Part shown: positions 14,681 through 28,068 of the stretch, piece after piece
How positions within the stretch are numbered: the first letter of the stretch is position 1
Layout: each line of letters opens with the position of its first letter
Assembly (NCBI RefSeq): GCF_020037015.1
Contig: NZ_JAIQDE010000009.1
Location: 186,001 to 250,000, forward strand
Reading direction: 5' to 3'
From: Corallococcus sp. AS-1-6
Lineage (GTDB): Bacteria; Myxococcota; Myxococcia; Myxococcales; Myxococcaceae
Length of the DNA stretch: 64,000 nucleotides
Notes under the pieces: model-generated
Database searches by the model: none
What the model was told of the DNA's origin: nothing
Seen by the model: the letters and a program-made list of their open reading frames with translations, nothing else
Translations under genes and position numbers: made by a program

Positions 14681-17230
14681 TCACACGTCTGGCAGCACCT
14701 GCTTCACCCGGAGCACGGGCGCGAACAGGTCCCCCACGGCGTCCAGGCGCTTCTTCAGCGTCTCCAGCCGGAAGCGCCGCGGGTCCAGGCGGCCGTTCAC
14801 CTCGCTCCAGTCGAGCGGCGCGGAGAAGGGCGCACCCTCCACGGCGCGCAGGGAGTAGGGCGCCACCACCGTCTTGCCGCGCGCGTTCTGCCCCGCGTCG
14901 ATGTAGAGCCGCCCGCCGCGCTCGCGGATGGAGCGCTCCGTGGTGGCGATGTCGCCCAGCTCCTCCTCCAGCTCCCGCGCCCGCGCGTCCGCGAAGGCCT
15001 GGGTGCGCGCGTAGGTGTGGCCCGGCGCCAGCGGCACCAGCACGTGCAGGCCGCGCTTGCCGGACGTCTTCGGGAAGGCCTTGAGCCCCAGCTCGTCCAG
15101 CCGCGCGTGCAGCAGGGTGGCCACCTTCACCACGTCCTTCCATTCGCCCTCGCCGGGGTCCAGGTCGAACACCACGAAGTCCGGCTGCGCCAGCCTTGGC
15201 GCGTGGGACAGCCACATGTGCAGCGTGAGCGCGGACTGGTTCGCGAGCCACAGGAGCGCGGACACATCCTTCACGTTCACGTGGCGCAGCGTCTTGCCCT
15301 CGTGGCGCACGCGCAGCGTGGGCACCCATGACGGGATGCCGGACAGCTCGTGCCGGAAGAAGCCCGGGGCCTGGATGCCCGCGGGCCACTGCTGGTGGGC
15401 CAGGGGCCGGTCCGCCAGCACGGGCAGCAGCAGCGGCGCCACCTGCTCGTAGTACGCGAACACGTCCGCCTTCGTCAGGCCGGACTCGGGGAACAGCACG
15501 CGCTCGCCGTGCGTGAGGGCCACCTCCGGCGCGCCCCGGGACTTCCCGCGCGGCGTCTTCAGGGCGGGCGCCTTCGCGGTGCGGGCGGCGGCCTGCGCCG
15601 GCGCGCGCCGCGAGCCCCGGCGTGCGGCGCCTTCGATGGGGGCGGGGCGTTCACGCACGACCTCCCGCGGCGCCTTGTCGCTGCGCAGGCCCTGGAACAC
15701 GGGGTGGCGCAGGCGGCCGTCCTTCGTCCATTCGGTGAAGTTCACCTGGGCCACGTACTTCGGCTTCACCCAGACGGTGTCCGTGTTCGCGGGCGCGTCC
15801 ACCGCGGCGGGCTCCTTCACGCGCGTGGCGTCCAGCAGCCAGCGCAGCTCGCGGCGGTCCTTCGACGTGTAGCCCGTGCCCACCTTGCCCACGTCGTGGA
15901 AGCCGTCCCTGCCCCGCACGCCCACGCGCAGCGCGCCAATCTCCGACCTCGCCCGCTCGTTCTTGATGGGCAGGTAGCCCAGGATGACGACCTCCTGGCC
16001 CGCGATGACCTTCAGCTTCAGCCAGTCCCCGGAGCGCGTGCCCGTGTAGGGCGAGTCCTTGCGCTTGGCGATGAGGCCCTCCCACCCCTTGCGCCGCGCC
16101 TCCAGCAGGGCGCGCGACAGCGGCAGGTCCACCTTCTCGGAGAGCTGCAACGGCGGCTCCACATGGGCCAGGAGTTTCTCCAGCCGCGCGCGGCGCTCCT
16201 CGTAGGGGAGCGCGCGCAGGTCCTCGCCGTCCAGCCACAGCAGGTCGAACACCATGAACCGCTGCTCGGCGCCTTCCTCCGTGTTCTGCAGGCTCTGGAA
16301 GCTCGAGCGGCCCTTCGCGTCCAGCGCGACGATCTCCCCGTCCACGGCGACGTCCTTCGCGGGCAGCTCGCGCAGCGCGGCGGTGAGCCGGGCGAAGCGG
16401 CTCGACAGGTCGTTGCCCCGGCGGCTCTGGAAGGCGAGCTTCCCGCGCGTGAGCGCGCACACGGCGCGGAAGCCGTCGTACTTCACCTCGTAGGCGTGCG
16501 TCTCGTCGTGCACCTCGTCGGACACGGCCAGCCGCGCCAGCATGGGCGGCCACACGCGCTCCAGCAGCTTCTCCGGCGTGGCTGGAGGACGGGCCGGCTT
16601 CCTCGCGACCTTGCGCACGGGCTTCTTGTTCCGCGGCACGCCGGGCTTGCGAGGCCCGCGCGTCTCCACCTGGCCGCTCTTCACGGACTCGGGGCGCTCC
16701 ACGGTGACGTCATGGCCGGCCCTGGCGTACTCATCCTTCGCCTTGAAGAAGAGCCACTGCGCCTTGCCGCCGCGCGGACGCGTGCGGATGAGGTGCCAGC
16801 GCCCCTGGAGCTTCGCGCCGTGCAGCACGACCTCCAGGTGCCCGCGCTTCAACTGTGCCTCGGCGTCTCCGGGAGGCACGACCTCGAAGGTGCCGGACTC
16901 CCAGAGCAGCGAATCCCCGCCGCCGTACTGCTCATCCGGGATGTGGCCCTCGAAGTCCGCGTAGGAGCGCGGGTGGTCCTCTGTCTGGACCGCCAGCCGC
17001 TTCACGGCCGGGTCATGGCTGGGGCCCTTGGGAATGGCCCAGCTCACCAGCACGCCGCCAATCTCCAGGCGCAGGTCGTAGTGCAGGCGCGTGGCGTCAT
17101 GCTTGTGGATGACGAAGACAGGCGCGCCCGACTTCGGGGCCCTCACGTCCGGCGACGGTTCGGGCGTGAGGTGGAAGTCGCGCTTCGTCCGGTAGCGGCG
17201 CAGCCGTCTCTGGGTGTCGGAGTTCTTCAC
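14681..17230 (-). CDS. ligD: DNA ligase D (PE-ligase-polymerase)
   Basis: A non-homologous end-joining enzyme of 849 residues with all three LigD domains in the order phosphoesterase-ligase-polymerase. The N-terminal PE domain (about 10-170) has VIHKHDATRLHYDLRLE. The ATP-dependent ligase (about 225-520) has the adenylated Lys250 in EVKYDGFR. A basic Ala/Arg linker leads to the primase-like polymerase (about 575-849) with THGERVLFPESGLTK and FDLDPGEG. It seals double-strand breaks with Ku, for which there is no gene in this window. The start is GTG 17230; GGAAG lies directly against it, which is unusually close. It is divergent from a ferritin-like gene. Confidence 0.96.
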   Translation of the reverse strand: MKNSDTQRRLRRYRTKRDFHLTPEPSPDVRAPKSGAPVFVIHKHDATRLHYDLRLEIGGVLVSWAIPKGPSHDPAVKRLAVQTEDHPRSYADFEGHIPDEQYGGGDSLLWESGTFEVVPPGDAEAQLKRGHLEVVLHGAKLQGRWHLIRTRPRGGKAQWLFFKAKDEYARAGHDVTVERPESVKSGQVETRGPRKPGVPRNKKPVRKVARKPARPPATPEKLLERVWPPMLARLAVSDEVHDETHAYEVKYDGFRAVCALTRGKLAFQSRRGNDLSSRFARLTAALRELPAKDVAVDGEIVALDAKGRSSFQSLQNTEEGAEQRFMVFDLLWLDGEDLRALPYEERRARLEKLLAHVEPPLQLSEKVDLPLSRALLEARRKGWEGLIAKRKDSPYTGTRSGDWLKLKVIAGQEVVILGYLPIKNERARSEIGALRVGVRGRDGFHDVGKVGTGYTSKDRRELRWLLDATRVKEPAAVDAPANTDTVWVKPKYVAQVNFTEWTKDGRLRHPVFQGLRSDKAPREVVRERPAPIEGAARRGSRRAPAQAAARTAKAPALKTPRGKSRGAPEVALTHGERVLFPESGLTKADVFAYYEQVAPLLLPVLADRPLAHQQWPAGIQAPGFFRHELSGIPSWVPTLRVRHEGKTLRHVNVKDVSALLWLANQSALTLHMWLSHAPRLAQPDFVVFDLDPGEGEWKDVVKVATLLHARLDELGLKAFPKTSGKRGLHVLVPLAPGHTYARTQAFADARARELEEELGDIATTERSIRERGGRLYIDAGQNARGKTVVAPYSLRAVEGAPFSAPLDWSEVNGRLDPRRFRLETLKKRLDAVGDLFAPVLRVKQVLPDV

Positions 17231-17481
17231 CTTCCAACGCTCTGCACAGGAAGGCGGGCGCGCAATTCCTCACATCGCCTGGGGGGCAGCCAGGAGGGCA
17301 GGCGCTCCGCGCGGACCCGGCGTCCGCGTCTTCGGCCACACGCGAGATGGGAAGGGAGGCCGTCCGCCTGCCCTGCGTGCGGTGGAGGGTTGGGGCCGGG
17401 GAGGGCGGTTGGAACCGGGAGGATGAATCCCCACATTGTTCGGGCCCGAGCACTCGCCGTACCCGGTTGAAGGAGGCACCC
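17231..17481. promoter_or_regulatory. Divergent region ligD / ferritin-like gene with nested inverted repeats
   Basis: This 251-base spacer should hold both promoters. It contains a perfect 10-bp inverted repeat, AGGGCAGGCG (17295-17304) with its complement at 17365-17374. Inside it is a perfect 7-bp hairpin, CGCGGAC (17310-17316) / GTCCGCG (17322-17328). No clear sigma-70 or sigma-54 motif was found. A strong ribosome site AGGAGG (17471-17476) precedes ATG 17482. Confidence 0.4.
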
Positions 17482-17967
17482 ATGGCAGACAAGTCCGAAG
17501 TGGATCGCCTGCACAGCCTGGCCCAGCTCGATGCCGACGCGGTGGGCGCGTATGACGTGGCCATCGCCCGCATCAGGCCCGCCCTGGTGCGCGAACGCCT
17601 CAACAGCTTCCGCGCGGACCACCTGCGCCACGTGCAGGACCTCAACACGCTCCTCCAGCACTTCGGCGGTGAGCCGGTGGCGCTGCGCCCGGACCTGAAG
17701 GGCTCCGCGATGAAGGGCCTGACGGCCATGACGGGGCTGATGGGGACGGAGGCCACGCTGTGGGCCATGCTGGGCAACGAGGAGCTGTTCGACCGGGCCT
17801 ATGAGCTGGCGCTCCAGTTCGAGTGGTCGCCGGAGGTGAAGGCCCTCATCCGGCAGCACCGCGAGGACGAGCGGCGCCACGGCACGTGGATCCGCGACGC
17901 GGTGCGCACCCGGCCCTGGGCGGACAGCCGTCTGCCCTTCCTGGGCATGGCGGAAATGGGCGCCTGA
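17482..17967 (+). CDS. Ferritin-like protein, DUF2383 type
   Basis: A 161-residue, mostly helical protein of the ferritin-like superfamily (DUF2383-like). Acidic/His residues recur along four predicted helices: LDADAVGAYDVAI, ADHLRHVQDLNTLL, NEELFDRAYELAL and HREDERRHGTWIRDAV. The pattern E/D...DH..H and HREDERRH is suited to a di-iron site, though the binding was not tested. AGGAGG at 17471-17476 supports ATG 17482. It is divergent from ligD. The next gene, hutF, starts 44 bases on and may be co-transcribed. Function beyond a possible stress or iron role is unknown. Confidence 0.75.
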   Translation: MADKSEVDRLHSLAQLDADAVGAYDVAIARIRPALVRERLNSFRADHLRHVQDLNTLLQHFGGEPVALRPDLKGSAMKGLTAMTGLMGTEATLWAMLGNEELFDRAYELALQFEWSPEVKALIRQHREDERRHGTWIRDAVRTRPWADSRLPFLGMAEMGA

Positions 17968-18011: not shown

Positions 18012-19394
18012 GTGAGCGACATCACTGTCTACCAACCCGACTTCCTCTTCACGGAAGGGCGTTTCCACGAAGGCCGAGCGCTGGCGGTGGGCGCGGATGG
18101 CCGGGTCCTCGACGCGGTGCCCGAGGGCGCGCGCGTGGAGCGGCTCGCGGGGCGGGCGCTGTTGCCGGGGCTCGTCAACGGCCACTCGCACGCGTTCCAG
18201 CGGCTCATCCGCGGGCGCACCGAGTACGTGGCGTCCGCCGGAGGGCAGGACGACTTCTGGTCCTGGCGCGAGGCGATGTACCGCGCCGCGGAGGCGCTCA
18301 CGCCGGAGGAGATCCACGTCGCCTCCCGGCAGGTGTTCCTGGAGATGGTGCTCGCGGGCATCACCACGGTGGGCGAGTTCCACTACCTGCACCACCAGCC
18401 GGACGGCACGCCCTACGCGGACCGCAACGCGCTGGCGCACGCGGTCATCCGCGCGGCCACGGACGTGGGGCTGCGCATCTGCCTGCTGCGGGTGGGCTAC
18501 GCGCGCGCGGGCTTCAACGTGCAGGCGAACCCGCGCCAGCGCCGCTTCATCGACGCGGACGTGGACACGTTCCTGTCCACCACGCAGGCGCTGGCCCAGG
18601 CGGTGCGCGGCGACGCGCGGGTGAACGTGGGGCTCGCGCCGCACAGCGTGCGCGCGGTGTCGCGGGACTGGCTGACGCAGGTGGCCCGCGCCGCGCCCGC
18701 CGGCATGCCCATCCACATGCACGTGGCGGAGCAGCCGAAGGAGATCGAGGCGTGCCTCGCGGAGCACGGCCGCCGCCCGGTGGAGCTGGTGTCGGACGTG
18801 GGCCTGCTGGGGCCGCGCTTCACGGCGGTGCACGGCGTGCACCTGACGGAGGCCGAGGTGGCGCTGCTGGGCCGCGCGGAGGCCACGGTGTGCGCGTGCC
18901 CGTCCACGGAGCGCAACCTGGGTGACGGCATCGTGCCGGCGGACGCGCTGGTGAAGGCCGGGGCGCGCGTGAGCTTCGGCTCGGACAGCCAGACGGTGGT
19001 GGACCTGCTGGACGAGGCGCGGCAGTTGGAGCAGCACCTGCGGCTGGTGCGGCTGCGCCGCGCGGTGCTGGACCCGGGGACGGGGACCCTGGACGGGCTG
19101 GCGGCGCGGCTCTTCGACATGGCCACGGTGCAGGGCGCGCGAAGCCTGGGGATGGGCACGGGCACGCTGTCGCCGGGGGCCGCCGCGGACTTCTTCACGG
19201 TGGACGTGCACCACCCGTCGCTGGTGGGCGCGGGGACGGCGTCGCTCCTGCCGGGCATCGTCTTCGGCGCGGCGGGAGGCGCGGTGCGCGACGTGGCCGT
19301 GGCGGGCCGGCTCGTGGTCCGGGACGGCCGCCATCCGCTGATGGAGGAGAGCGGCAGGTCGTTCCAGCAGCTCGCCCGTCGCCTCTATCCATAG
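18012..19394 (+). CDS. hutF: Formimidoylglutamate deiminase
   Basis: A 460-residue amidohydrolase-superfamily enzyme that converts N-formimino-L-glutamate to N-formyl-glutamate and ammonia in the five-step histidine degradation route. Metal and active-site blocks are visible: LVNGHSHAFQR, the long RGRTEYVA...DDFWSWREAMY segment specific to HutF, MPIHMHVAEQ, FTAVHGVHL, and FGSDSQTVVDLLDEAR. Length and order match the family. GTG at 18012 puts the N-terminus just before the first strand; longer starts would read into the upstream gene. No other hut genes are in the window. Confidence 0.9.
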   Translation: MSDITVYQPDFLFTEGRFHEGRALAVGADGRVLDAVPEGARVERLAGRALLPGLVNGHSHAFQRLIRGRTEYVASAGGQDDFWSWREAMYRAAEALTPEEIHVASRQVFLEMVLAGITTVGEFHYLHHQPDGTPYADRNALAHAVIRAATDVGLRICLLRVGYARAGFNVQANPRQRRFIDADVDTFLSTTQALAQAVRGDARVNVGLAPHSVRAVSRDWLTQVARAAPAGMPIHMHVAEQPKEIEACLAEHGRRPVELVSDVGLLGPRFTAVHGVHLTEAEVALLGRAEATVCACPSTERNLGDGIVPADALVKAGARVSFGSDSQTVVDLLDEARQLEQHLRLVRLRRAVLDPGTGTLDGLAARLFDMATVQGARSLGMGTGTLSPGAAADFFTVDVHHPSLVGAGTASLLPGIVFGAAGGAVRDVAVAGRLVVRDGRHPLMEESGRSFQQLARRLYP

Positions 19395-19457: not shown

Positions 19458-20882
19458 ATGCGTTCAGGAATCGGGTTGGCGCTGGTGATGCTGATGGGAC
19501 TGGCCGTGGGGGGCTGTGCCGGGCGGCAGGACCTGGAGACCCCGGACTACGAGGCCATCTACGACGTGCCCCTGGAGGAGATGTGGCCGTCGGTCCGTGA
19601 GTACTTCACGGCCGCGCGCCTGCCCTACCGGGAGGACCGGGGCAGCCTGGTGCTGGAGACCGAGTGGAAGCAGGAGTTCGGCGGCTCGAAGATCGCCGGC
19701 TACTGGCACCGCTACATGGTCATCGGCAAGCGGGAGACGCCCACGAAGAGCAAGCTGTGGATCATCCGCATCACCAAGTCGGTGAACAAGACGCTGTCGC
19801 GGCCCGGCAAGGAACTGGAGTGGGGCACTTCCCGAAGCCTTGGCAATGGCGCTGAAGATGTCTCGGACCTGAGCGTGGAGGACGACGCGGACCGGTTGAC
19901 CTTCCCCGTGGGCGAGAACGCCTTCTACATGGAGTCGGGGCAGGGCACGCGCGACCTGACCATGGAGTGGCGCGTGTTCCGGGGCGTCATGCCCAAGCTG
20001 GCGAAGAAGCAGGAAGTGCGCGCGGAGCAGGCGGTGGCGAAGGCGCCGGGCGCGAAGGAAGCCCCGGTGTTCACCGAGTGCGGCCAGTCCATCCTCGGGC
20101 TGAAGAAGCTGGCCAGGGCGGGCGGGGTGCTGCTGCTGGGGGAGCTGCACGGCACGCAGGAGGTGCCGCGCTTCATCGCGCAGTCGGTGTGCCAGTTGGT
20201 CACGGTGGGGATGCCGGTGACGGTGGGGCTGGAGCTGCCAGTGGAGAACGAGGAGCGCATCACCGCGTTCCTCCAGAGCCAGGGCGGTGAGGTGGACTGG
20301 CTCAAGCTGATGGAGGCCCCGTTCTGGCGCAGCCCGTACCCGGACGGCCGTGGCAGCGAGGCCGTGGCCAACATGCTGGAGCAACTGCGGCAGTTGCGAG
20401 CGCAGGGCCTGGACGTGGCGGTGTTCGTCTACGACCACCCGAAGCTGTCGGGGCAGCAGCGCGAGGACGCGCTGACGAAGACGGTGCTGGCGCAGGTGAA
20501 GTCGAAGCCGGAGCGCTTCCACCTGGTGGTGAGCGGCAACATCCACCCGCGCACGGCGAAGGGCCTGCCCTGGGACAAGCAGTACAAGCCGATGGGCTAC
20601 CTGCTGAAGGCGGAACTCGACGACGTCACGGCCCTCGACATGGCCTACGACAGCGGCACGGCGTGGATCTGCGCGGCGAACCCGCGGAGCAACAAGCTGG
20701 ACTGCGGTGTGAAGGAAGCGAAGGGGAAGGACAACGGAGACCGCGTCTTCGTCCACCGGTGGAACTCGGCCAACAGTGACGGCTACCACGGCGTGTTCTA
20801 CGTGGGACACGTGACGGCGTCCGAGCCCGCCGTCCTCAAGGGCCTGGGCAACCCGGACACGGTGTCCACGCCGAGCCCGTAG
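19458..20882 (+). CDS. Lipoprotein paralogue 1: BamC-like N-domain plus ChaN/TIKI/EreA-like domain
   Basis: A 474-residue lipoprotein (lipobox LAVGGC). The N-terminal part (about 30-180: YDVPLEEMWPSVREYF, LETEWKQEF) resembles BamC/NlpB-type domains, which share a short helix followed by a D..G.l..eW strand. The C-terminal part (about 195-474) has LLLGELHGTQ near residue 222, GLELPV, YDHP, SGNIHPRT and VFVHRW. These conserved Glu/His sites recall the haem-binding ChaN/TIKI and erythromycin-esterase-like families. ATG 19458 sits 6 bases from AAGGAGG; ATG 19452 touches that site. A diverged copy follows directly. The function is unknown: enzyme or haem binding are guesses from motifs. Confidence 0.6.
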   Translation: MRSGIGLALVMLMGLAVGGCAGRQDLETPDYEAIYDVPLEEMWPSVREYFTAARLPYREDRGSLVLETEWKQEFGGSKIAGYWHRYMVIGKRETPTKSKLWIIRITKSVNKTLSRPGKELEWGTSRSLGNGAEDVSDLSVEDDADRLTFPVGENAFYMESGQGTRDLTMEWRVFRGVMPKLAKKQEVRAEQAVAKAPGAKEAPVFTECGQSILGLKKLARAGGVLLLGELHGTQEVPRFIAQSVCQLVTVGMPVTVGLELPVENEERITAFLQSQGGEVDWLKLMEAPFWRSPYPDGRGSEAVANMLEQLRQLRAQGLDVAVFVYDHPKLSGQQREDALTKTVLAQVKSKPERFHLVVSGNIHPRTAKGLPWDKQYKPMGYLLKAELDDVTALDMAYDSGTAWICAANPRSNKLDCGVKEAKGKDNGDRVFVHRWNSANSDGYHGVFYVGHVTASEPAVLKGLGNPDTVSTPSP

Positions 20883-20939
20883 TCCATCGCAGCGGAAACG
20901 CGCGACTCGATATGCCCACCCGCCACGTCACATTCCTTC

Positions 20940-20955
20940 CGCGTCGCGTGACGCG
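20940..20955. repeat. Small hairpin before paralogue 2
   Basis: A perfect 6-bp stem (CGCGTC at 20940-20945, GACGCG at 20950-20955) with a GCGT loop. It lies 15 bases before the preferred ATG 20971 and touches the alternative ATG 20956. If transcribed it would sit in the 5' leader and could affect translation. Confidence 0.35.
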
Positions 20956-20970
20956 ATGGAGGCACTGCGA

Positions 20971-22503
20971 ATGCGCTTGATGCTGAACATGGGGTGGATG
21001 GTGTTGCTCCTGGCGGTGGGATGCGCCGCCCGACCGGTGGACTGGGACCTGATGGGCCGGGAGGCCATCTACGACCGGCCCCTGGAGGAGATCTGGCCCT
21101 CGGTGCGTCAGTATTTCGTGGACGCGAAGCTGACCTTCCGCGAGGCCCCGGGAAGCCCGGTGCTGCAGACGGAATGGAAGGAGGAGTTCGGTGGCTCGAA
21201 GGTCTCCGGCTACTGGCACTGCTACCTCGTGCTCGGCAAGCGGGAGACGCCCACGAAGAGCAAGCTGTGGATCATCCGTGTCACCCGCAGCGCGAACAAG
21301 ACGCTCTCCGCGCCCGGCAAGGAGCTGGAGTGGGGCGTGAGCCGCAACATGGGGCTCGACCTCCAGAACCGGTTGGAGGACCTGGGGGGCATCCAGCCCG
21401 CTCCGGGAGGCCCCGAAACACTGGAGGGTGGCTTCGCCCTCAGCGTGGAGGACGACGAGGACCGGTTCTCGATGCCGCGTGGAGAGAACGCCATCGTCGC
21501 GGAGTCCGCGCATGGCACGCGCGACCTCACCATGGAGTGGCGGGTGTTTCACGCCATCGCGCCACGTCTGGCGGCAAAGGACGGCGCCACTCCGCCCACT
21601 GCCGTGCAGCAGGTGGCGAAAGCGCCCGAAGCGAAGTCCGCGCCCGTGTTCACCGAGTGCGGCGCGCCCATCCTCGGCCTGAAGGCCCAGGCGAAGGCGG
21701 GCGGGGTGCTGCTGCTGGGCGAGCTGCACGGCACCCAGCAGGTGCCGCGCTTCATCGCGCAGGCCGCCTGCCAGCTCACCGCGGGGGGCCTGCCCGTGTC
21801 GGTGGGGCTGGAGCTGCCGGTGGACAACCAGATGCGAATCACCACGTTCCTCCAGAGCCAGGGCAGGGAGGAGGACTGGCTCAAGCTGATGGAGGCGCCG
21901 TTCTGGCGCAGCCCCTATCCGGATGGCCGGGGCAGCGAGGCCGTGGCCAACATGCTGGAGCAGTTGCGCCAACTGCGCGCACAGGGCCTGGACGTGGCGG
22001 TGTTCGTCTACGACCACCCGAAGCTCACGGGGCAGCCGCGCGAGCAGGCGCTGGCCGCCACGGTGTTGAAGGAGGTGGAGGCCGGCCCCACACGTTTCCA
22101 CCTGGTGGTGAGCGGGAACATCCATCCGCGCACGGCGAAGGGGCTGCCCTGGGACAAGCAGTACCAACCCATGGGGCGGCTCCTGTCCGAGCGGCTGAAG
22201 CACGTGGTGGCGTTGGACGTGGCGTACGACAGCGGCTCGGCGTGGATCTGCGCGCCGGATGCGCAGGGCCGCAAGCTGGACTGTGGCGTGAAGGAGGCGA
22301 AGGGGAAGGACAACGGCGACCGCTTCTTCGTGCACGTCTGGGACTCCCCCAACAAGGACGGCTACCACGGGGTCTTCTACGTAGGCCCGGTGACCGCGTC
22401 CGCGCCCGCCATCTCCAAGGGCCTGGGCCGGCCGGGCGCGGATGACAACTCCGTGTTCCCGCGGGCCCCGGACGCGGACGTGGTGGCCTCCTCGCGACGC
22501 TGA
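20971..22503 (+). CDS. Lipoprotein paralogue 2: BamC-like N-domain plus ChaN/TIKI/EreA-like domain
   Basis: A 510-residue lipoprotein (lipobox LLAVGC), a tandem duplicate of the gene at 19458. It has the same two-part layout and the same conserved sites (LLLGELHGTQ near residue 244, GLELPV, YDHP, SGNIHPRT, FFVHVW). A stretch of about 60 residues around WLKLMEAPFWRSPYPDGRG is nearly identical, while the N-terminal halves differ more. It has an insertion of roughly 25 residues after the BamC-like region and a C-terminal extension. GGAGG at 20959-20963 supports ATG 20971 rather than 20956. The duplication with unequal divergence suggests a shared catalytic or binding core with different partners. 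Function unknown. Confidence 0.6.
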   Translation: MRLMLNMGWMVLLLAVGCAARPVDWDLMGREAIYDRPLEEIWPSVRQYFVDAKLTFREAPGSPVLQTEWKEEFGGSKVSGYWHCYLVLGKRETPTKSKLWIIRVTRSANKTLSAPGKELEWGVSRNMGLDLQNRLEDLGGIQPAPGGPETLEGGFALSVEDDEDRFSMPRGENAIVAESAHGTRDLTMEWRVFHAIAPRLAAKDGATPPTAVQQVAKAPEAKSAPVFTECGAPILGLKAQAKAGGVLLLGELHGTQQVPRFIAQAACQLTAGGLPVSVGLELPVDNQMRITTFLQSQGREEDWLKLMEAPFWRSPYPDGRGSEAVANMLEQLRQLRAQGLDVAVFVYDHPKLTGQPREQALAATVLKEVEAGPTRFHLVVSGNIHPRTAKGLPWDKQYQPMGRLLSERLKHVVALDVAYDSGSAWICAPDAQGRKLDCGVKEAKGKDNGDRFFVHVWDSPNKDGYHGVFYVGPVTASAPAISKGLGRPGADDNSVFPRAPDADVVASSRR

Positions 22504-22570: not shown

Positions 22571-23713
22571 ATGAGCGACACGCTGCCCGCGCTGCGGGCC
22601 ACCCTGGCCGACCTGGTGGCGCTGGACACCACGTCCTCGCGCCCCAACGCGCCCCTCATCGACTACGCCCAGGCGCGCCTGGAGGCCGCGGGCTTCACCG
22701 CCGAGCGCCAGCACTACACGGACGACGCGGGCGTGGCGAAGGTGAACCTCATCGCGCGCAAGGGCGACGCCGACCGCGCCGCGCTGGCCCTGGTGGGCCA
22801 CTCCGACTGCGTGCCCTACGACGCCGCCTGGACGGACGCGCTGCGCCTCACCGAGCGCGACGGCAAGCTGTACGGCCGCGGCGCCTGTGACACCAAGGGC
22901 TTCATCGCCTGCGCGCTGCACACCGCCACGCGCAAGGACCTGCCCGGGCTGGACGCGCCCCTGCTCGTCATCCTCACCGCGGATGAGGAGGTCGGCCTCG
23001 TGGGCGCGAAGAAGCTGGTGGCCGCCGGCCTGGGCCGCGCGAGGCACGCCATCGTCGGTGAGCCCACGCGCCTCATCCCCGTGCGCGCCAACAAGGGCTA
23101 CTGCCTGGCGGAGGTGGAGGTGCTGGGCAAGGAGGGGCACAGCGCGTACCCGGAGCTGGGCGCGTCCGCCATCTTCCGCGCCGGCCGCTTCCTGCACCGG
23201 CTGGAGGCGCTGGCGAACACCGTCCTGCGCGAGGACCGCGACGAGGGCTTCCAGCCGCCCTTCACCACCGTGAACGTGGGCCTCATCCAGGGCGGAAAGG
23301 CGAAGAACGTCCTGCCCGGCTCCTGCCGCTTCACCGTCGAATGGCGCCCCATCCCCGGTCAGGCCGCCGAGCGCGTCCCGGAGCTGATGGAGCACATCCG
23401 CCAGGAGCTCACCCGCGACGAGCCCGCCTACGAGGCGCGCATCAAGGTCCTGCGCATGGACCGCGGCGTCCACACGCGCGGCGACGCGGACGTGGTGCGC
23501 TTCCTGGAGCAGGTCAGCGGCAACGCGTCCGAGACGGTGTCCTTCGGCACGGAGGCCCCCCAGCTCACGGAGCTGGGCGCGGAGGCCGTGGTGTTCGGCC
23601 CCGGCGACATCCGCGTCGCGCACCAGACGGGCGAGTTCGTCCCCATGGAGGACCTGGTGCGCTGCGAGGCCGCGCTCACCCAGGCCGTCGCGCGCTTCTG
23701 CACGGGCGGCTGA
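22571..23713 (+). CDS. argE: ArgE-type N-acetylornithine deacetylase (M20 family)
   Basis: A 380-residue M20-family zinc amidohydrolase. Metal and catalytic blocks are His77-Ser-Asp79 in LVGHSDCVP, Asp107 in GRGACDTKGF, catalytic Glu139-Glu140 in TADEEVG, the EPT block (VGEPTRLIPV), and a C-terminal His in RVAHQTGEF. The dimerisation domain contains KEGHSAYPELG. Length and motifs fit acetylornithine deacetylase, which releases acetate in arginine synthesis. Succinyl-diaminopimelate desuccinylase or another acyl-amino-acid hydrolase is possible, since the family is hard to split by eye. The ATG at 22571 lies 67 bases after the lipoprotein stop. It is convergent with the DUF2652 gene. Confidence 0.83.
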   Translation: MSDTLPALRATLADLVALDTTSSRPNAPLIDYAQARLEAAGFTAERQHYTDDAGVAKVNLIARKGDADRAALALVGHSDCVPYDAAWTDALRLTERDGKLYGRGACDTKGFIACALHTATRKDLPGLDAPLLVILTADEEVGLVGAKKLVAAGLGRARHAIVGEPTRLIPVRANKGYCLAEVEVLGKEGHSAYPELGASAIFRAGRFLHRLEALANTVLREDRDEGFQPPFTTVNVGLIQGGKAKNVLPGSCRFTVEWRPIPGQAAERVPELMEHIRQELTRDEPAYEARIKVLRMDRGVHTRGDADVVRFLEQVSGNASETVSFGTEAPQLTELGAEAVVFGPGDIRVAHQTGEFVPMEDLVRCEAALTQAVARFCTGG

Positions 23714-23725
23714 GGGCGCGGCGCT

Positions 23726-24445
23726 TCAGGGCTTCTCGTCGACGATTTCGACGTTGCGGAAGCCCTGGCACGCCTCCTTGAGGCCGAGCACGTACTTCAG
23801 CGAGCGCAGCTCCAGGGTGAGCTTGTTCCACAGCTTGCGCAGCACGTTGGGGCGCGGCGCGGGCACGCTCGACACCAGCGTGCTCAGGTCGAGGTAGTGC
23901 GTCGGCGTGCGGCCCATGCCCTCGAAGTCGTGCTCCAGCCCCTGGCTGAGCTGGCGCAGCTCCGGCTCCAGGCGCTGGTGCACCGCGTCCGTCATCAGGA
24001 CGTACTCGGGCACGGGCACGTCGTTCTTCAGCATCCGGTGCACGAGGATGACGTCCACCCCCGCCAGCTCCGTGAGGTGCTTCACCTTCTGGAAGGCGAC
24101 CTCCCCGGCGTGGGCCACGAACTTGAGCGTCAGGTTGCCCACCTGCGTGCAGCCGTCGCACCTGCACATGCGGTCCAGGACCAACTGCTCCCGGCGCTCC
24201 AGGAAGGCACGGCGGATGGCCGCCACCTGCTTCGCGACCGGCGAGGCGTCGTCACCCACGGCGTAGAAGAAGGCCGCGTCGCCTTCCAGCTTCGCCAGCT
24301 TGAACCGGCCGGACGCATCGATGACGGCCTCCAGCAGTTGGGCCACCGTGTCCTGCGCGTGCGCGAGACCGAAGCGGTGCTGCCGCATGAAGCGGGTGTA
24401 GCCGCCGATGTCCGCGATGAGCAACAGCGCCTTCTCGATCGCCAT
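23726..24445 (-). CDS. DUF2652 protein, class III cyclase-like
   Basis: A 239-residue DUF2652 protein. Its start resembles a class III nucleotidyl cyclase: Asp12 in LLIADIGGYTRFM matches the first metal Asp, and Asp56 in KLEGDAAFFYA matches the second. A Cys cluster (Cys94, Cys96, Cys99) interrupts the usual domain. The rest includes FVAHAGEVAFQKV and a helical C-terminus. Residues that select the purine base in true cyclases could not be identified, so enzymatic activity is uncertain. It lies 38 bases upstream of the mfd stop region on the same strand, so it is downstream of mfd and may be co-transcribed. Confidence 0.72.
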   Translation of the reverse strand: MAIEKALLLIADIGGYTRFMRQHRFGLAHAQDTVAQLLEAVIDASGRFKLAKLEGDAAFFYAVGDDASPVAKQVAAIRRAFLERREQLVLDRMCRCDGCTQVGNLTLKFVAHAGEVAFQKVKHLTELAGVDVILVHRMLKNDVPVPEYVLMTDAVHQRLEPELRQLSQGLEHDFEGMGRTPTHYLDLSTLVSSVPAPRPNVLRKLWNKLTLELRSLKYVLGLKEACQGFRNVEIVDEKP

Positions 24446-24483: not shown

Positions 24484-27400
24484 TCAGTGCCGGGGCAGCG
24501 CGCAGGTGCCCACGTCGCGCAGCAGCTTGTGCGCCTCCGCCAGCAGGGCGTGCCCCTTCACCTCCGGGGGCACGCGGGCGATGAGCTTCATGTCCGGCGT
24601 CAGCCGGTAGAAGCCCTTGGAGCGCTGCACCAGCCCCGCCACCTTCGCGCCGTCCAGGAGCGCGTCGCCGCCCAGCGCCAGCGACAGCCGGCCCGGGCCC
24701 GCCTCCAGCGCGCGCAGCCGCAGCTCGCGCATGTCGATCTTCAAGAGCGTCACCTCGGAGAGGGCGTCCACCTCGTCGGGGGCCTCGCCGTAGCGGTCCA
24801 CCAGCTCCGCGCGCAGGTCCGTCACCTCGTCCGGGTGGCTGGCCTGGCTGAAGCGCTTGTAGAACACCAGCCGCTGGTGCACGTCCGCCACGTAGTCGTC
24901 GGGGATGAGCGCCGGCATGGGCAGGTTGATGTCCGGCTCCACGTGCACCTTGGGCGGCTGGCCCTGCAGCTCCGCCACCGCCTCCTCCATCAACTGCGCG
25001 TACAGGTCGAAGCCGATTTCAGCGATGGCGCCGGACTGCTTCTCGCCCAGCAGGTTGCCCGCGCCGCGGATCTCCAGGTCGTGGCTGGCGATGGAGAAGC
25101 CCGCGCCCAGCTCCGTGAAGTTCTGGAGCACCTCCAGGCGCCGCTGCGCGTCCTTCGTCACCGGACGGCGGGTGGGCACCAGCAGGTACGCGTACGCGCG
25201 CTCCTTGCTGCGGCCCACGCGCCCGCGCAACTGGTAGAGCTGCGCCAGACCGAACTGGTCCGCGCGGTTGACGATCATCGTGTTGGCGCTGGAGATGTCG
25301 ATGCCGCTCTCGATGATGCTGGTGCACAGGAGCACCTGGAACTTGTGCTCCGTGAACTGGAGCATCACCTTCTCCAACTGCCCCTCGGCCATCTGCCCGT
25401 GCGCCACGCCGATGGAGACGTTCGGCAGGAGCTTCTTCAGCTCCTGCTCCATGGACGGCAGGGACTCCACGCGGTTGTGCACGAAGAAGACCTGGCCACC
25501 GCGGGCAATCTCCCGCTCCACGGCCTCCTTGATGACGGCCTCGTCGTACTTCATCACGAAGGTGCGGATGGCCCGGCGGTCCTGCGGCGGCGTGGCGATG
25601 ATGCTCATGTCGCGCACGCCGGACATGCTCATGTGCAGCGTGCGGGGGATGGGCGTCGCCGTCAGCGTCAGCACGTCCACCTGCGTGCGCAGCCGCTTGA
25701 GCGCCTCCTTCTGCTTCACGCCGAAGCGCTGCTCCTCGTCCACCACCAGGAGCCCCAGGTCCTTGAAGGCCACCTCGCCCGCCAGCAGCTTGTGCGTGCC
25801 GATGACGATGTCGACCTTGCCCTCCTTCGCGCGGCGGAGGATGTCGCGGATCTCCGGCGGCTTGCGGATGCCGGAAATCACCTCCACCGTGACGGGGTAG
25901 TCCTTGAAGCGCTTCTTGAAGGAGTGGAAGTGCTGCTGCGCCAGCACCGTGGTGGGCACCAGCACCGCCACCTGCTTGCGGTCCAGCGTGGCCTTGAAGG
26001 CGGCGCGCATCGCCACCTCCGTCTTGCCGTAGCCCACGTCGCCGCAGACGAGCCGGTCCATCGGCTGCGCCTTCTGCATGTCGGACAGCACGTCCTCGAT
26101 GGCCTTCGCCTGGTCCGGCGTCTCCTCGAACTCGAAGTCCGCCTCGAACTGGGCGAAGTAGCGGTCCGGCGGCGCGAAGGCGTAGCCCGGGTGCGCCTTG
26201 CGCGCGGCGGCCATCTGCAACAGCTCCGCCGCCATCTTGAGCAACTGCTCCTTGACGCGCTTCTTCGTCTTCTCCCAGCTCGTCGTGCCCAGCTTGTCGA
26301 GCTGGACCTTCTCCGGGTCGCCGCCGGTGAACTTCTGGATGAGCCGCATGCGGCCCACCGGCAGATAGATTTTGTCCCGCCCCGCGTACTCCAGGACGAG
26401 GAAGTCCCCCGGCACGCCCTGCACCTCCATCTTCGTCAGGCCCGCGTAGCGCCCGATGCCGAAGTCGGTGTGGACGATGAGGTCGCCTTCCTTCAGGTCC
26501 TTGAAGCCCGCGGCGAACGCGTCCAGCTTCTTGCTGCGCTTGACGCGGCGGCGGGAGCGGACGCCGAAAATCTCCTCGTCCGCGAGCACCGCCAGCCGGC
26601 CTTCCGGGTCGAAGAAGCCGTGGCTCACCTCGCCGGTGAACAGGTGCGCCCAGACCGCCGGCTCGTAGAGCTTCGCCGGGTCCTGCAACGCCTCCGTGTG
26701 CACCTTCACCATCACGGAGCGGTCCAGCAGCAGCCGCTTGAGCCGGTCCGCCTGGCTGAGCGTGCCGCACGCCACCGCGCACGCCACGCCGGTGTCGCGC
26801 CAGCGCTGCAGCCGCTCCACCAGCGGGGTGAGCGCGCCCTCCTCACCGTGGTGCGCGAGGATGGCCTCGCGCAGGTCCTGCGTCGTGCCGAAGGTGAAGG
26901 CCACGGGCGCTCCGGACTGCGACAGCGACAGGCCTCCGCCCTCCACCACGCGCAGGGCCTCGAGTCCCGCCGCCACGCCCTCGCGCGTGAGGAAGTGGTG
27001 CTCCGGCGGATAGGTGAGGTCCTGGCGCGCGTCCGCCTCCTCCACGCCCTTGGCCAGCTCCGCCCACAGCTCCTCCTGCACGCGGTCCAGGCCCACCGGG
27101 TCGTCCAGGTAGACGACGGGCTCCTTCGCCCACGCGCGCAGGTAGTCGAACACGGAGGCCAGCCCGCCCTCGAAGAAGCCGGGCAGCAGCCCCTCCAGGC
27201 CGAAGCCGGGGAGCCCCTCGCGGAGCGCGTCCAGCCGCTCGCGCAGCTTGATGGTGGGCAGGTTGATGCGGTCCGCCACCGCGCGGGCGGCGGCCTCGGC
27301 GCGCGGGCGGGTGTCGTCGGTGAGCAGCAGCTCGCGCGCCGGCACCAGGTCCACGGACTTGAGCGCGTCCACGGTGCGCTGCGACTCCGGGTCGAAGACG

Positions 27401-28068
27401 CGGATGGACTCGATGGTGTCCCCGAAGAACTCCAGGCGCACCGGCCGCTCGTACAGCGGGCTGAAGACGTCCAGCAGGCCGCCGCGCACGCTGAAGGTGC
27501 CCTTGTCCTCCACCAGCGGGCTGTTCTGGTAGCCCATCAGCGCCAGCTTCCGCGCCAGCGAGTCGCGGTCGAAGTCCTGGCCCACCTCCACGCGCTGGGC
27601 CAGCCCCTCCATCACCCCCAGCGGCAGCACGCGGCGGTGCAGCGCGCGCAGGGACAGCACCAGCGCGGGGAACGGCGTGCCGCGCGCCAGGTGGAACAGC
27701 GCGCCCAGGCGCTCCGTGATGGGGCCCGCCTCCGGTGACAGCTCGTCGTAAGGGAGCACCTCGTCCGCGGGCAGCCGCAGCACGCGGGGCTCCAGCAGGC
27801 TGCCGGTGCCCCCCAGGAAGAAGGCCAGGTCGTGCGCGAGCGCGTCCGCCGCCTCTTCGTCCACGGCCACGCACACCAGGGGCGCGCGCAGCTCGCGGTG
27901 CAGGCGGGCGAGCAGGTGGCCGCGCGCCGCGCCCTTCACCCCCTGCGTCCGCGCGCGGTGCCCCGCGCGCAGGGAGGCGAGGAGCCGGGCGAAGGCATCA
28001 CCGGAGGAGGAGGGGGCGCCGCCGGGCCAGGACGTGCCGTCGGACTTCGGGGGAAGGGAGGTATCCAT
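24484..28068 (-). CDS. mfd: Transcription-repair coupling factor
   Basis: A 1194-residue Mfd that removes stalled RNA polymerase at DNA lesions and recruits UvrA. In order there are a UvrB-like N-terminal part (YDELSPEAGPITERLGAL), an RNA-polymerase-interacting CarD-like segment (LKEGDLIVHTDFGIGRYAGL), and a RecG-like translocase. The translocase has Walker A GDVGYGKTEVAMRAAF near residue 674, a DEEQ box (VVDEEQRFGV), TATPIPRTLHM, and motif VI (QLRGRVGRS). A C-terminal TRCF domain (VHVEPDINLPMPALIPDDYV) follows. Length is normal. The C-terminus is acidic/basic with no truncation. Confidence 0.98.
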   Translation of the reverse strand: MDTSLPPKSDGTSWPGGAPSSSGDAFARLLASLRAGHRARTQGVKGAARGHLLARLHRELRAPLVCVAVDEEAADALAHDLAFFLGGTGSLLEPRVLRLPADEVLPYDELSPEAGPITERLGALFHLARGTPFPALVLSLRALHRRVLPLGVMEGLAQRVEVGQDFDRDSLARKLALMGYQNSPLVEDKGTFSVRGGLLDVFSPLYERPVRLEFFGDTIESIRVFDPESQRTVDALKSVDLVPARELLLTDDTRPRAEAAARAVADRINLPTIKLRERLDALREGLPGFGLEGLLPGFFEGGLASVFDYLRAWAKEPVVYLDDPVGLDRVQEELWAELAKGVEEADARQDLTYPPEHHFLTREGVAAGLEALRVVEGGGLSLSQSGAPVAFTFGTTQDLREAILAHHGEEGALTPLVERLQRWRDTGVACAVACGTLSQADRLKRLLLDRSVMVKVHTEALQDPAKLYEPAVWAHLFTGEVSHGFFDPEGRLAVLADEEIFGVRSRRRVKRSKKLDAFAAGFKDLKEGDLIVHTDFGIGRYAGLTKMEVQGVPGDFLVLEYAGRDKIYLPVGRMRLIQKFTGGDPEKVQLDKLGTTSWEKTKKRVKEQLLKMAAELLQMAAARKAHPGYAFAPPDRYFAQFEADFEFEETPDQAKAIEDVLSDMQKAQPMDRLVCGDVGYGKTEVAMRAAFKATLDRKQVAVLVPTTVLAQQHFHSFKKRFKDYPVTVEVISGIRKPPEIRDILRRAKEGKVDIVIGTHKLLAGEVAFKDLGLLVVDEEQRFGVKQKEALKRLRTQVDVLTLTATPIPRTLHMSMSGVRDMSIIATPPQDRRAIRTFVMKYDEAVIKEAVEREIARGGQVFFVHNRVESLPSMEQELKKLLPNVSIGVAHGQMAEGQLEKVMLQFTEHKFQVLLCTSIIESGIDISSANTMIVNRADQFGLAQLYQLRGRVGRSKERAYAYLLVPTRRPVTKDAQRRLEVLQNFTELGAGFSIASHDLEIRGAGNLLGEKQSGAIAEIGFDLYAQLMEEAVAELQGQPPKVHVEPDINLPMPALIPDDYVADVHQRLVFYKRFSQASHPDEVTDLRAELVDRYGEAPDEVDALSEVTLLKIDMRELRLRALEAGPGRLSLALGGDALLDGAKVAGLVQRSKGFYRLTPDMKLIARVPPEVKGHALLAEAHKLLRDVGTCALPRH

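Follow-up and report, generated by a model that had tools for sequence, protein, structure and literature searches.

Tandem lipoproteins of Corallococcus joining a BamC-related helix-grip domain to a TIKI/Ere-type domain, in a family with intact and degenerate copies

A 64,000-nucleotide stretch of Corallococcus sp. AS-1-6 (contig NZ_JAIQDE010000009.1, positions 186,001 to 250,000; hereafter the window) contains two adjacent genes on the plus strand, A (19458..20882; 474 residues from the ATG at 19458) and B (20971..22503; 510 residues from the ATG at 20971), B being a tandem paralogue of A with 69% identity. Both encode lipoproteins in which a domain that is, by profile comparison, a homologue of the first helix-grip domain of BamC is followed by a predicted domain of the TIKI/Ere/ChaN superfamily. 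The explanation that we favour, with moderate confidence, is that A and B are outer-membrane-anchored ester or amide hydrolases with a helix-grip adaptor, and that a degenerate sister clade of the same family consists of retained pseudoenzymes. In our judgement two known superfamilies are combined here in a new way, and the split into active and dead copies is informative; the pairing was not described in the titles and abstract openings of the open-licence literature, which was partly covered.

Two adjacent lipoprotein genes

The products of A and B begin with a signal peptide and lipobox. The lipobox cysteines are C22 in A (LAVGGCAG, 19515..19517) and C23 in B (LLAVGCAA, 21022..21024), each followed by Ala at position +2. 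An earlier note, made from the sequence alone, had described two adjacent lipoproteins with the motifs GELHGT, GLELP, YDHP and GNIHPRT; the plus-strand reading frames, the lipoboxes and all four motifs are present in A and in B as described. Longer open reading frames start at ATG 19452 for A (476 residues) and ATG 20956 for B (515 residues), and residues are numbered here from these starts. Judged by eye, the ATGs at 19458 (AGGAGG) and 20971 (GGAGG) have the better spacing from a Shine-Dalgarno-type GGAGG.

The family was assembled from 174 open reading frames with a match to the C-terminal domain. Three short ones were dropped, 171 were kept, and removal of the rows of L001, L002 and L008-L037, many of which repeat others, left 112. 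Residue counts refer to 111 complete C-domains, as L061 is cut by a contig edge, beyond which its N-half would lie. The structure alignment comprised A, B and 78 of 107 other rows (79 were chosen under 88% identity and L061 was left out).

In Myxococcus xanthus, Lys at position +2 is reported for 8 of 12 inner-membrane lipoproteins, according to the accessible text of PMC3222651. A, with Ala at +2, does not have this residue. A lipobox was called in 59 of the 66 family rows with E261 and in 32 of the 46 with S261, and +2 Lys was found in none of them. Because there is no +2 Lys, A and B are most likely located in the outer membrane, as predicted from the lipobox. The C-domain also contains four conserved cysteines, C407 and C418 being invariant and C210 and C247 near-invariant in the family alignment, which would be compatible with an extracytoplasmic protein. 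The vesicle proteome of M. xanthus, in an extract of PMC4158809, contains many unnamed lipoproteins.

A and B are 69% identical over 479 columns (BLASTP E 0.0), with 66% identity in the N-half (121/183) and 77% in the C-half. The rates of nonsynonymous (dN) and synonymous (dS) substitution were 0.305 and 0.536 in the N-half and 0.159 and 0.395 in the C-half, so that neither half reaches a dN/dS of 1; together with the BLASTP result, this indicates that the likeness is not due to chance. Within the C-domains, 58 positions are identical in the best block of 60 residues and identity is unbroken over at most 51 residues, in agreement with the near-identical cores of the earlier note. That note had also held that the N-terminal halves differ and that one core is coupled to two envelope partners. 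The core is indeed conserved between A and B, but the N-halves are alike, so two partners are unsupported, and the idea of different N-halves serving different partners is rejected on their identity of 66%.

Recent gene conversion as the source of the near-identical block was considered and is not favoured. Over the 51-residue run, the DNA of A is 91.5% identical to that of B and 96.1% identical to that of its C. interemptor orthologue, a comparison that covers A, as the orthologue of B does not have the identical run. In the tree, A groups with one C. interemptor gene and B with another. A is thus closer to its orthologue than to B, and this and the separate pairing argue against conversion.

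Relation of the N-terminal domain to BamC

The helix-grip domain of A occupies about residues 34-181 (19551..19994) and was recognized by profile, profile-profile and fold comparison. When a 70-row profile of the N-half was compared with the PDB sequences, 11 matches were obtained at E values up to 10, all of them BamC (lipoprotein 34), with E values of 0.0017-0.0057. Alignment of the N-profile with 31 BamC sequences by hhalign gave 97.8%, and 96.8% against the first helix-grip domain of BamC with signal peptides removed. The controls were far lower: 0.2 for the best of 100 column shuffles, 0.1 for the reversed alignment and 0.0 for the unrelated C-domain profile. As a measure of scale, the two helix-grip domains of BamC itself reach 81% against each other, and the N-domain reached only 9.3% against the second of them. 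BamC occupied ranks 1 to 14 of a Foldseek search with the N-domain model and was also first in VIA-align (Z 8.2).

Several observations weigh against this assignment. The model of the N-domain is of moderate quality, with a predicted local distance difference test score (pLDDT) of 73.4 and a predicted template modelling score (pTM) of 0.60. The Foldseek search gave no clear match at E ≤ 0.001 (best 1.0e-3), and in VIA-align BamC was tied with an unrelated Francisella protein (2mu4, Z 8.0), with Flpp3 entries at 7.9 and 7.4 and AMPK/KA1 domains at 7.4, less than 1 below BamC. Freestanding N-domains match BamC by HMMER at E values of only 0.15-0.8 (five of the seven sequences listed). Searches of Pfam with single N-half sequences matched none of six; the BamC family PF06804 was detected in 15 of 80 full-length members at E values up to 1, the best being 0.0061, and is never decisive alone. 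Freestanding N-domains likewise returned no convincing Pfam family (PF06804 in 2 of 31, best E 0.19). By hhalign, the freestanding domains gave 99.8% with the fused N-domain and 93.3% with BamC. The support from fold alone is modest and it is the sequence profiles that carry the BamC claim; on these, the N-half is a homologue of the first helix-grip domain of BamC.

BamC and the two proteins of the window are lipoproteins with a first-type helix-grip domain. They differ in that A and B have a single helix-grip domain, with the TIKI-type domain in place of the second, and no lasso, only about 11 residues separating the lipid-bearing Cys from the domain in A. For lack of a lasso and of a second helix-grip domain, A and B are regarded as BamC-related and not as BamC. 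The family also falls under the PF06804 cut-off. PF06804 itself gave nothing over the cut-off in the source genome (best E 0.925, in another gene) and no match in the genomes of L102, L103 and L056 (0/3). A 2026 review, in the sections available, restricts BamC to beta- and gamma-proteobacteria and calls it the most mysterious lipoprotein of the beta-barrel assembly machinery (BAM) (PMC13067283; PMC3359395 also cited), and the accessible part of PMC3359395 records BamC as absent from the 41 delta-proteobacterial genomes surveyed. The family of A and B occurs in Myxococcota, and its BamC-related domain would be an exception to the reported range. The score below the Pfam threshold for BamC may explain why earlier surveys missed the domain.

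Fold and catalytic-type residues of the C-terminal domain

The C-domain of A extends over about residues 204-462 (20061..20837), and the AlphaFold2 model of this half had a pLDDT of 82.3 and a pTM of 0.79. In VIA-align the closest structures were BcR135 (2qgm, Z 20.3) and the erythromycin esterase EreC (6xcq, Z 19.6), aligned over approximately 233-245 residues at 15-16% identity. HopBA1 (12.7), ChaN (2g5g, 11.7), PMT (10.5) and RRSP (10.5 for 5w6l and 12.2 for 6a7h, an entry titled only 'Bacterial protein toxins') followed. The model thus places the C-half in the TIKI/Ere/ChaN superfamily, with its common alpha/beta fold. The pairing of BamC-like and ChaN/TIKI/EreA-like regions that the earlier note proposed was upheld by profile, profile-profile and fold comparison, and an N-half unlike BamC joined to a C-half from an unrelated enzyme family, which the note had named as refuting it, is not what was found.

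From the 51 active rows listed, 23 intact ones were selected by hand to give a good spread, and their profile matched EreC with a whole-sequence E value of 6.7e-4. In the printed alignment E231, H233, E261, R337 and H365 of A fall on E47, H50, E78, R261 and position 289 of EreC, with a construct offset of 20 that is common to all five residues; position 289 is His, replaced by Asn in the mutant crystal. The catalytic roles of the EreC residues are given in the accessible text of PMC7979712. In gene A, E231 (20142) and H233 (20148) lie in GELHGT (20139..20156), E261 (20232) in GLELP (20226..20240), R337 at 20460..20462 and H365 (20544) in GNIHPRT (20535..20555), all placed by the family alignment and the EreC register. 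In B, E256 and H258 of GELHGT are at 21721..21729, and E286, R362 and H390 follow without gaps relative to A. Both proteins therefore have the motif of two His and two Glu, E-H-E and a final His, and the basic residue near the last His, R337, is present in 112 of 112 rows.

The same set of two His, two Glu and Arg occurs, at nearly the same spacing, in RRSP, a TIKI endopeptidase, as described in the available portion of PMC6254334. From the same source, RRSP shares the E-x-H pattern, a second Glu 30 residues past the first and an Arg 28-29 residues before the last His, as well as the fold; its accessory domains and setting are unlike those of A and B. The likeness to the Ere family and BcR135 (6xcq; 2qgm, 3b55) is the closest, with a fold match at Z of about 20 and all five catalytic residues in register, whereas A and B have a lipid anchor and a fused helix-grip domain and are not recognized by the erythromycin esterase family. 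PF05139 left A and B unmatched at E values up to 10 and weakly matched 5 of 80 family members (best E 3.8e-4). NCBIfam also left A and B unmatched and gave no family common to more than 2 of the 80 members. A and B thus score under the cut-off of every Pfam and NCBIfam model.

Three points weigh against reading the C-half as an Ere-type enzyme. The pieces of the EreC alignment are weak singly, with independent E-values of 80 (E/H/E) and 0.3 (R/H), and for this reason the register draws also on the fold and the matching spacing. The scores of A and B against PF04187 (Cofac_haem_bdg), 16.0 and 21.2 bits, are under the cut-off of 27.7. Finally, ChaN of the same superfamily is haem-binding by the title of 2g5g, so that kept residues need not mean catalysis.

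Intact and degenerate copies

In the 111 complete C-domains, positions 231, 233 and 261 were E-H-E in 65 and [DE]-[LM]-S in 46, with no intermediates, and R337 and H365 were kept in all 112 rows. The claim that the Glu/His sites are strictly kept is thus correct for A and B; family-wide it fails, as 46 of 111 C-domains do not have H233 and E261. The 46 degenerate copies form one side of a single branch of the unrooted tree (support 100/96), which spans Archangium, Hyalangium, Corallococcus, Myxococcus, Pyxidicoccus and Citreicoccus. Intact and degenerate copies occur together in at least 21 of 32 strains or records, the source genome included.

Selection was assessed with pairs at 80-99% protein identity and dS of 0.05-1.2. 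The median dN/dS of the C-domain was 0.279 in intact copies (261 pairs) and 0.329 in degenerate ones (75 pairs); for the N-domain, the values were 0.329 (49 pairs) and 0.393 (54 pairs). These medians indicate purifying selection, and so the degenerate copies are not decaying genes. The catalytic five are complete in each of the 11 stand-alone C-domains, among them the rows from Cyclobacteriaceae and Lysobacterales. As stand-alone C-domains of other lineages are E-H-E, a single old loss with long retention is suggested, and the degenerate clade would have arisen by loss, not gain, of H233 and E261. The degenerate copies are probably binding-only pseudoenzymes. PMT is a parallel, as it is a member of the TIKI superfamily reported without the two His and two Glu (PMC6254334, same portion), and the two losses were presumably independent.

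The possibility was considered that the C-domain is a ChaN-like binder of haem or another ligand which passes its cofactor on without catalysis, the degenerate clade binding other ligands. PF04187 is the closest Pfam family by sequence, matched by 68 of 80 members at E values up to 1 (best 1.2e-13), and ChaN is among the fold matches, although 2g5g covers the C-half only (model 189-432). However, BcR135 and EreC are much nearer in fold than ChaN, and the catalytic five, including the Arg, are complete in the active clade as well as in the stand-alone C-domains. In YDHP, the Tyr is replaced by Phe or Ile in many rows, so that it is not a conserved ligand, and the source genome has a separate, clear PF04187 protein of ChaN type (C44:20988-21593, E 2.6e-51). 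This alternative is unlikely. A further PF04187 match in the same genome lies in a 534-residue open frame (C54:143178).

The explanation that we favour, that of anchored hydrolases with a helix-grip adaptor and retained pseudoenzymes, would operate as follows. A and B would be held by their lipid in the outer membrane, facing the periplasm, and the BamC-type helix-grip domain, directly after the anchor, may act as an adaptor through which an envelope protein or ligand is bound. The TIKI/Ere-type C-domain would be a putative hydrolase of ester or amide bonds. E231 would orient H233; H233, E261 and H365 would hold and activate a water molecule that attacks the carbonyl; and R337 would stabilize the charged intermediate, by analogy with the proposal for EreC. 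An old duplication may have given rise to the sister clade that is without H233 and E261 and retains R337, H365 and the helix-grip domain. Such pseudoenzyme copies may tune the active copies or compete with them.

Distribution of the family

A protein search of the 9.5 Mb source genome found the family in seven places: A and B, two further fusions (C8 and C9), a lipoprotein with the C-domain only (C7) and two with the N-domain only (C11 and C15). Both halves therefore also exist alone. The C7 paralogue exceeds the PF04187 cut-off when its two pieces are joined (39.5). The freestanding BamC-like lipoproteins (C11:188634-189194, L006/L141; C15:65170-65658, L007) have approximately 175-190 residues and have relatives across many Myxococcaceae genomes.

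The nearest named relatives of A and B are from Corallococcus. The genome searches scored the best 12, 16 or 17 candidates per genome, which makes presence and copy numbers lower bounds. The C-domain profile was found in at least 71 of 195 Myxococcota genomes (64 of 149 of good quality; 18 of 90 genera) and the N-domain profile in at least 70 of 193. Genomes positive for the C-domain had from one match to at least 12. With a freestanding N-domain protein as query, at least 74 of 193 genomes were positive, fusions included, and six of the 74 lie outside the family of the source genome (E 1e-8 to 3e-4). One genome (G122) has five copies inside about 9 kb.

A scan of named genomes with one peptide pattern, again a lower bound, gave at least 67 loci, 60 of them in records titled as genera of Myxococcaceae or Archangiaceae. 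The other seven are two in a Comamonas-titled record and five C-domain loci that do not have the N-domain, from a Cyclobacteriaceae, two Lysobacterales, a Deltaproteobacteria and a Myxococcales metagenome-assembled genome. The record of Comamonas sp. KCTC 72670 (L056, L075) seems mislabelled: in the tree the L056 genes group with those of Myxococcus, their order is that of Myxococcus, and the genome measures 9.0 Mb. The Myxococcales metagenome-assembled genome (L100:7932-9065) has a different fusion, in which a DUF4440/SnoaL-like domain (PF14534, E 1.3e-9) comes after the C-domain. A search for the C-domain by itself detected it in 16 of 101 genomes around one Lysobacterales genome. Fusions of N- and C-domain were found only in Myxococcota or the Comamonas-titled record, the N-domain having been searched in Myxococcota only.

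Genomic context

A and B lie in a conserved locus. On the plus strand they are preceded by genes for a DUF2383/COQ7-ferritin-like protein (17479..17967) and formimidoylglutamate deiminase, hutF (18030..19394; TIGR02022 over cut-off), the starts of both being assumed, and are followed by an argE-type acetylornithine deacetylase gene (22571..23713; TIGR01892 over cut-off). On the minus strand, a gene for a DUF2652 protein (23729-24445, E 2.4e-40) lies between the argE-type gene and mfd (24484..28068), which forms the conserved edge of the locus. Upstream of these genes, a LigD with three domains (phosphoesterase, ATP-dependent ligase, primase-polymerase) is encoded on the minus strand at 14681-17230. 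At least two or three family copies adjoin hutF in each of 17 hutF-bearing loci, which also show the DUF2383-like gene, argE and mfd where they extend far enough, and two more loci, cut by contig ends, have argE and mfd with two family copies. These loci occur in Corallococcus, Myxococcus, Pyxidicoccus, Citreicoccus and the Comamonas-titled record. A scan of the locus for promoters and terminators found none, a result that says little for this genus.

This arrangement could mean that A and B are catabolic or self-protection enzymes of a hutF-argE operon, hydrolysing external peptides, amides or, like Ere, ester antibiotics. In its favour, the DUF2383-like gene, hutF, A, B and argE all point the same way and are separated by about 57-88 bases, according to which starts are taken, the association recurs in the loci described above, and Ere is among the nearest solved folds. 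However, HutF and ArgE are cytosolic amino-acid enzymes, so A and B may be mere neighbours of their genes. Moreover, the copies stand on either side of hutF by species, the order in Corallococcus being unlike that in Myxococcus, and none of the hutF, argE, mfd and DUF2383-like neighbours was found at Archangium or degenerate-clade loci. An operon enzyme is accordingly quite unlikely.

Discussion

The relation to BamC raises the question of a role in outer-membrane protein assembly. It is very doubtful that A and B are BAM accessory proteins, with the helix-grip domain docked near BamA or BamD and the C-domain a passive or quality-control module: the homology to BamC, the contact of BamC helix-grip domains with POTRA-2 noted in the available sections of the 2026 review (PMC13067283) and the lack of PF06804 over the cut-off in the source genome would fit, but BamC is described there as gripping BamD mainly via its N-terminal lasso, for which A has no room between the lipid-bearing Cys and the domain, a second helix-grip domain is absent, the genes adjoin hutF and argE, and the number of C-domain matches in a genome ranges between 0 and 12 or more even inside the family, which is not the pattern of a fixed subunit of a complex.

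A still bolder proposal, and the least probable of those discussed here, is that myxobacteria have a family of BamC-related adaptors, some freestanding and some fused, by which a TIKI-type hydrolase is brought to the machinery that assembles outer-membrane proteins. If this were true, the intact copies would be hydrolases that process precursors or control quality in the envelope, and members of the dead clade would retain substrates or fill docking sites and so set the activity. The BamC helix-grip domain would then be older or wider in distribution than the beta- and gamma-proteobacteria.

The split of one family into 65 intact and 46 dead sites is a natural contrast for the function of pseudoenzymes. 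In the same way, the occurrence in Myxococcota of a homologue of the helix-grip domain, both as a small lipoprotein and in the fusion, provides an independent setting for what that domain binds.

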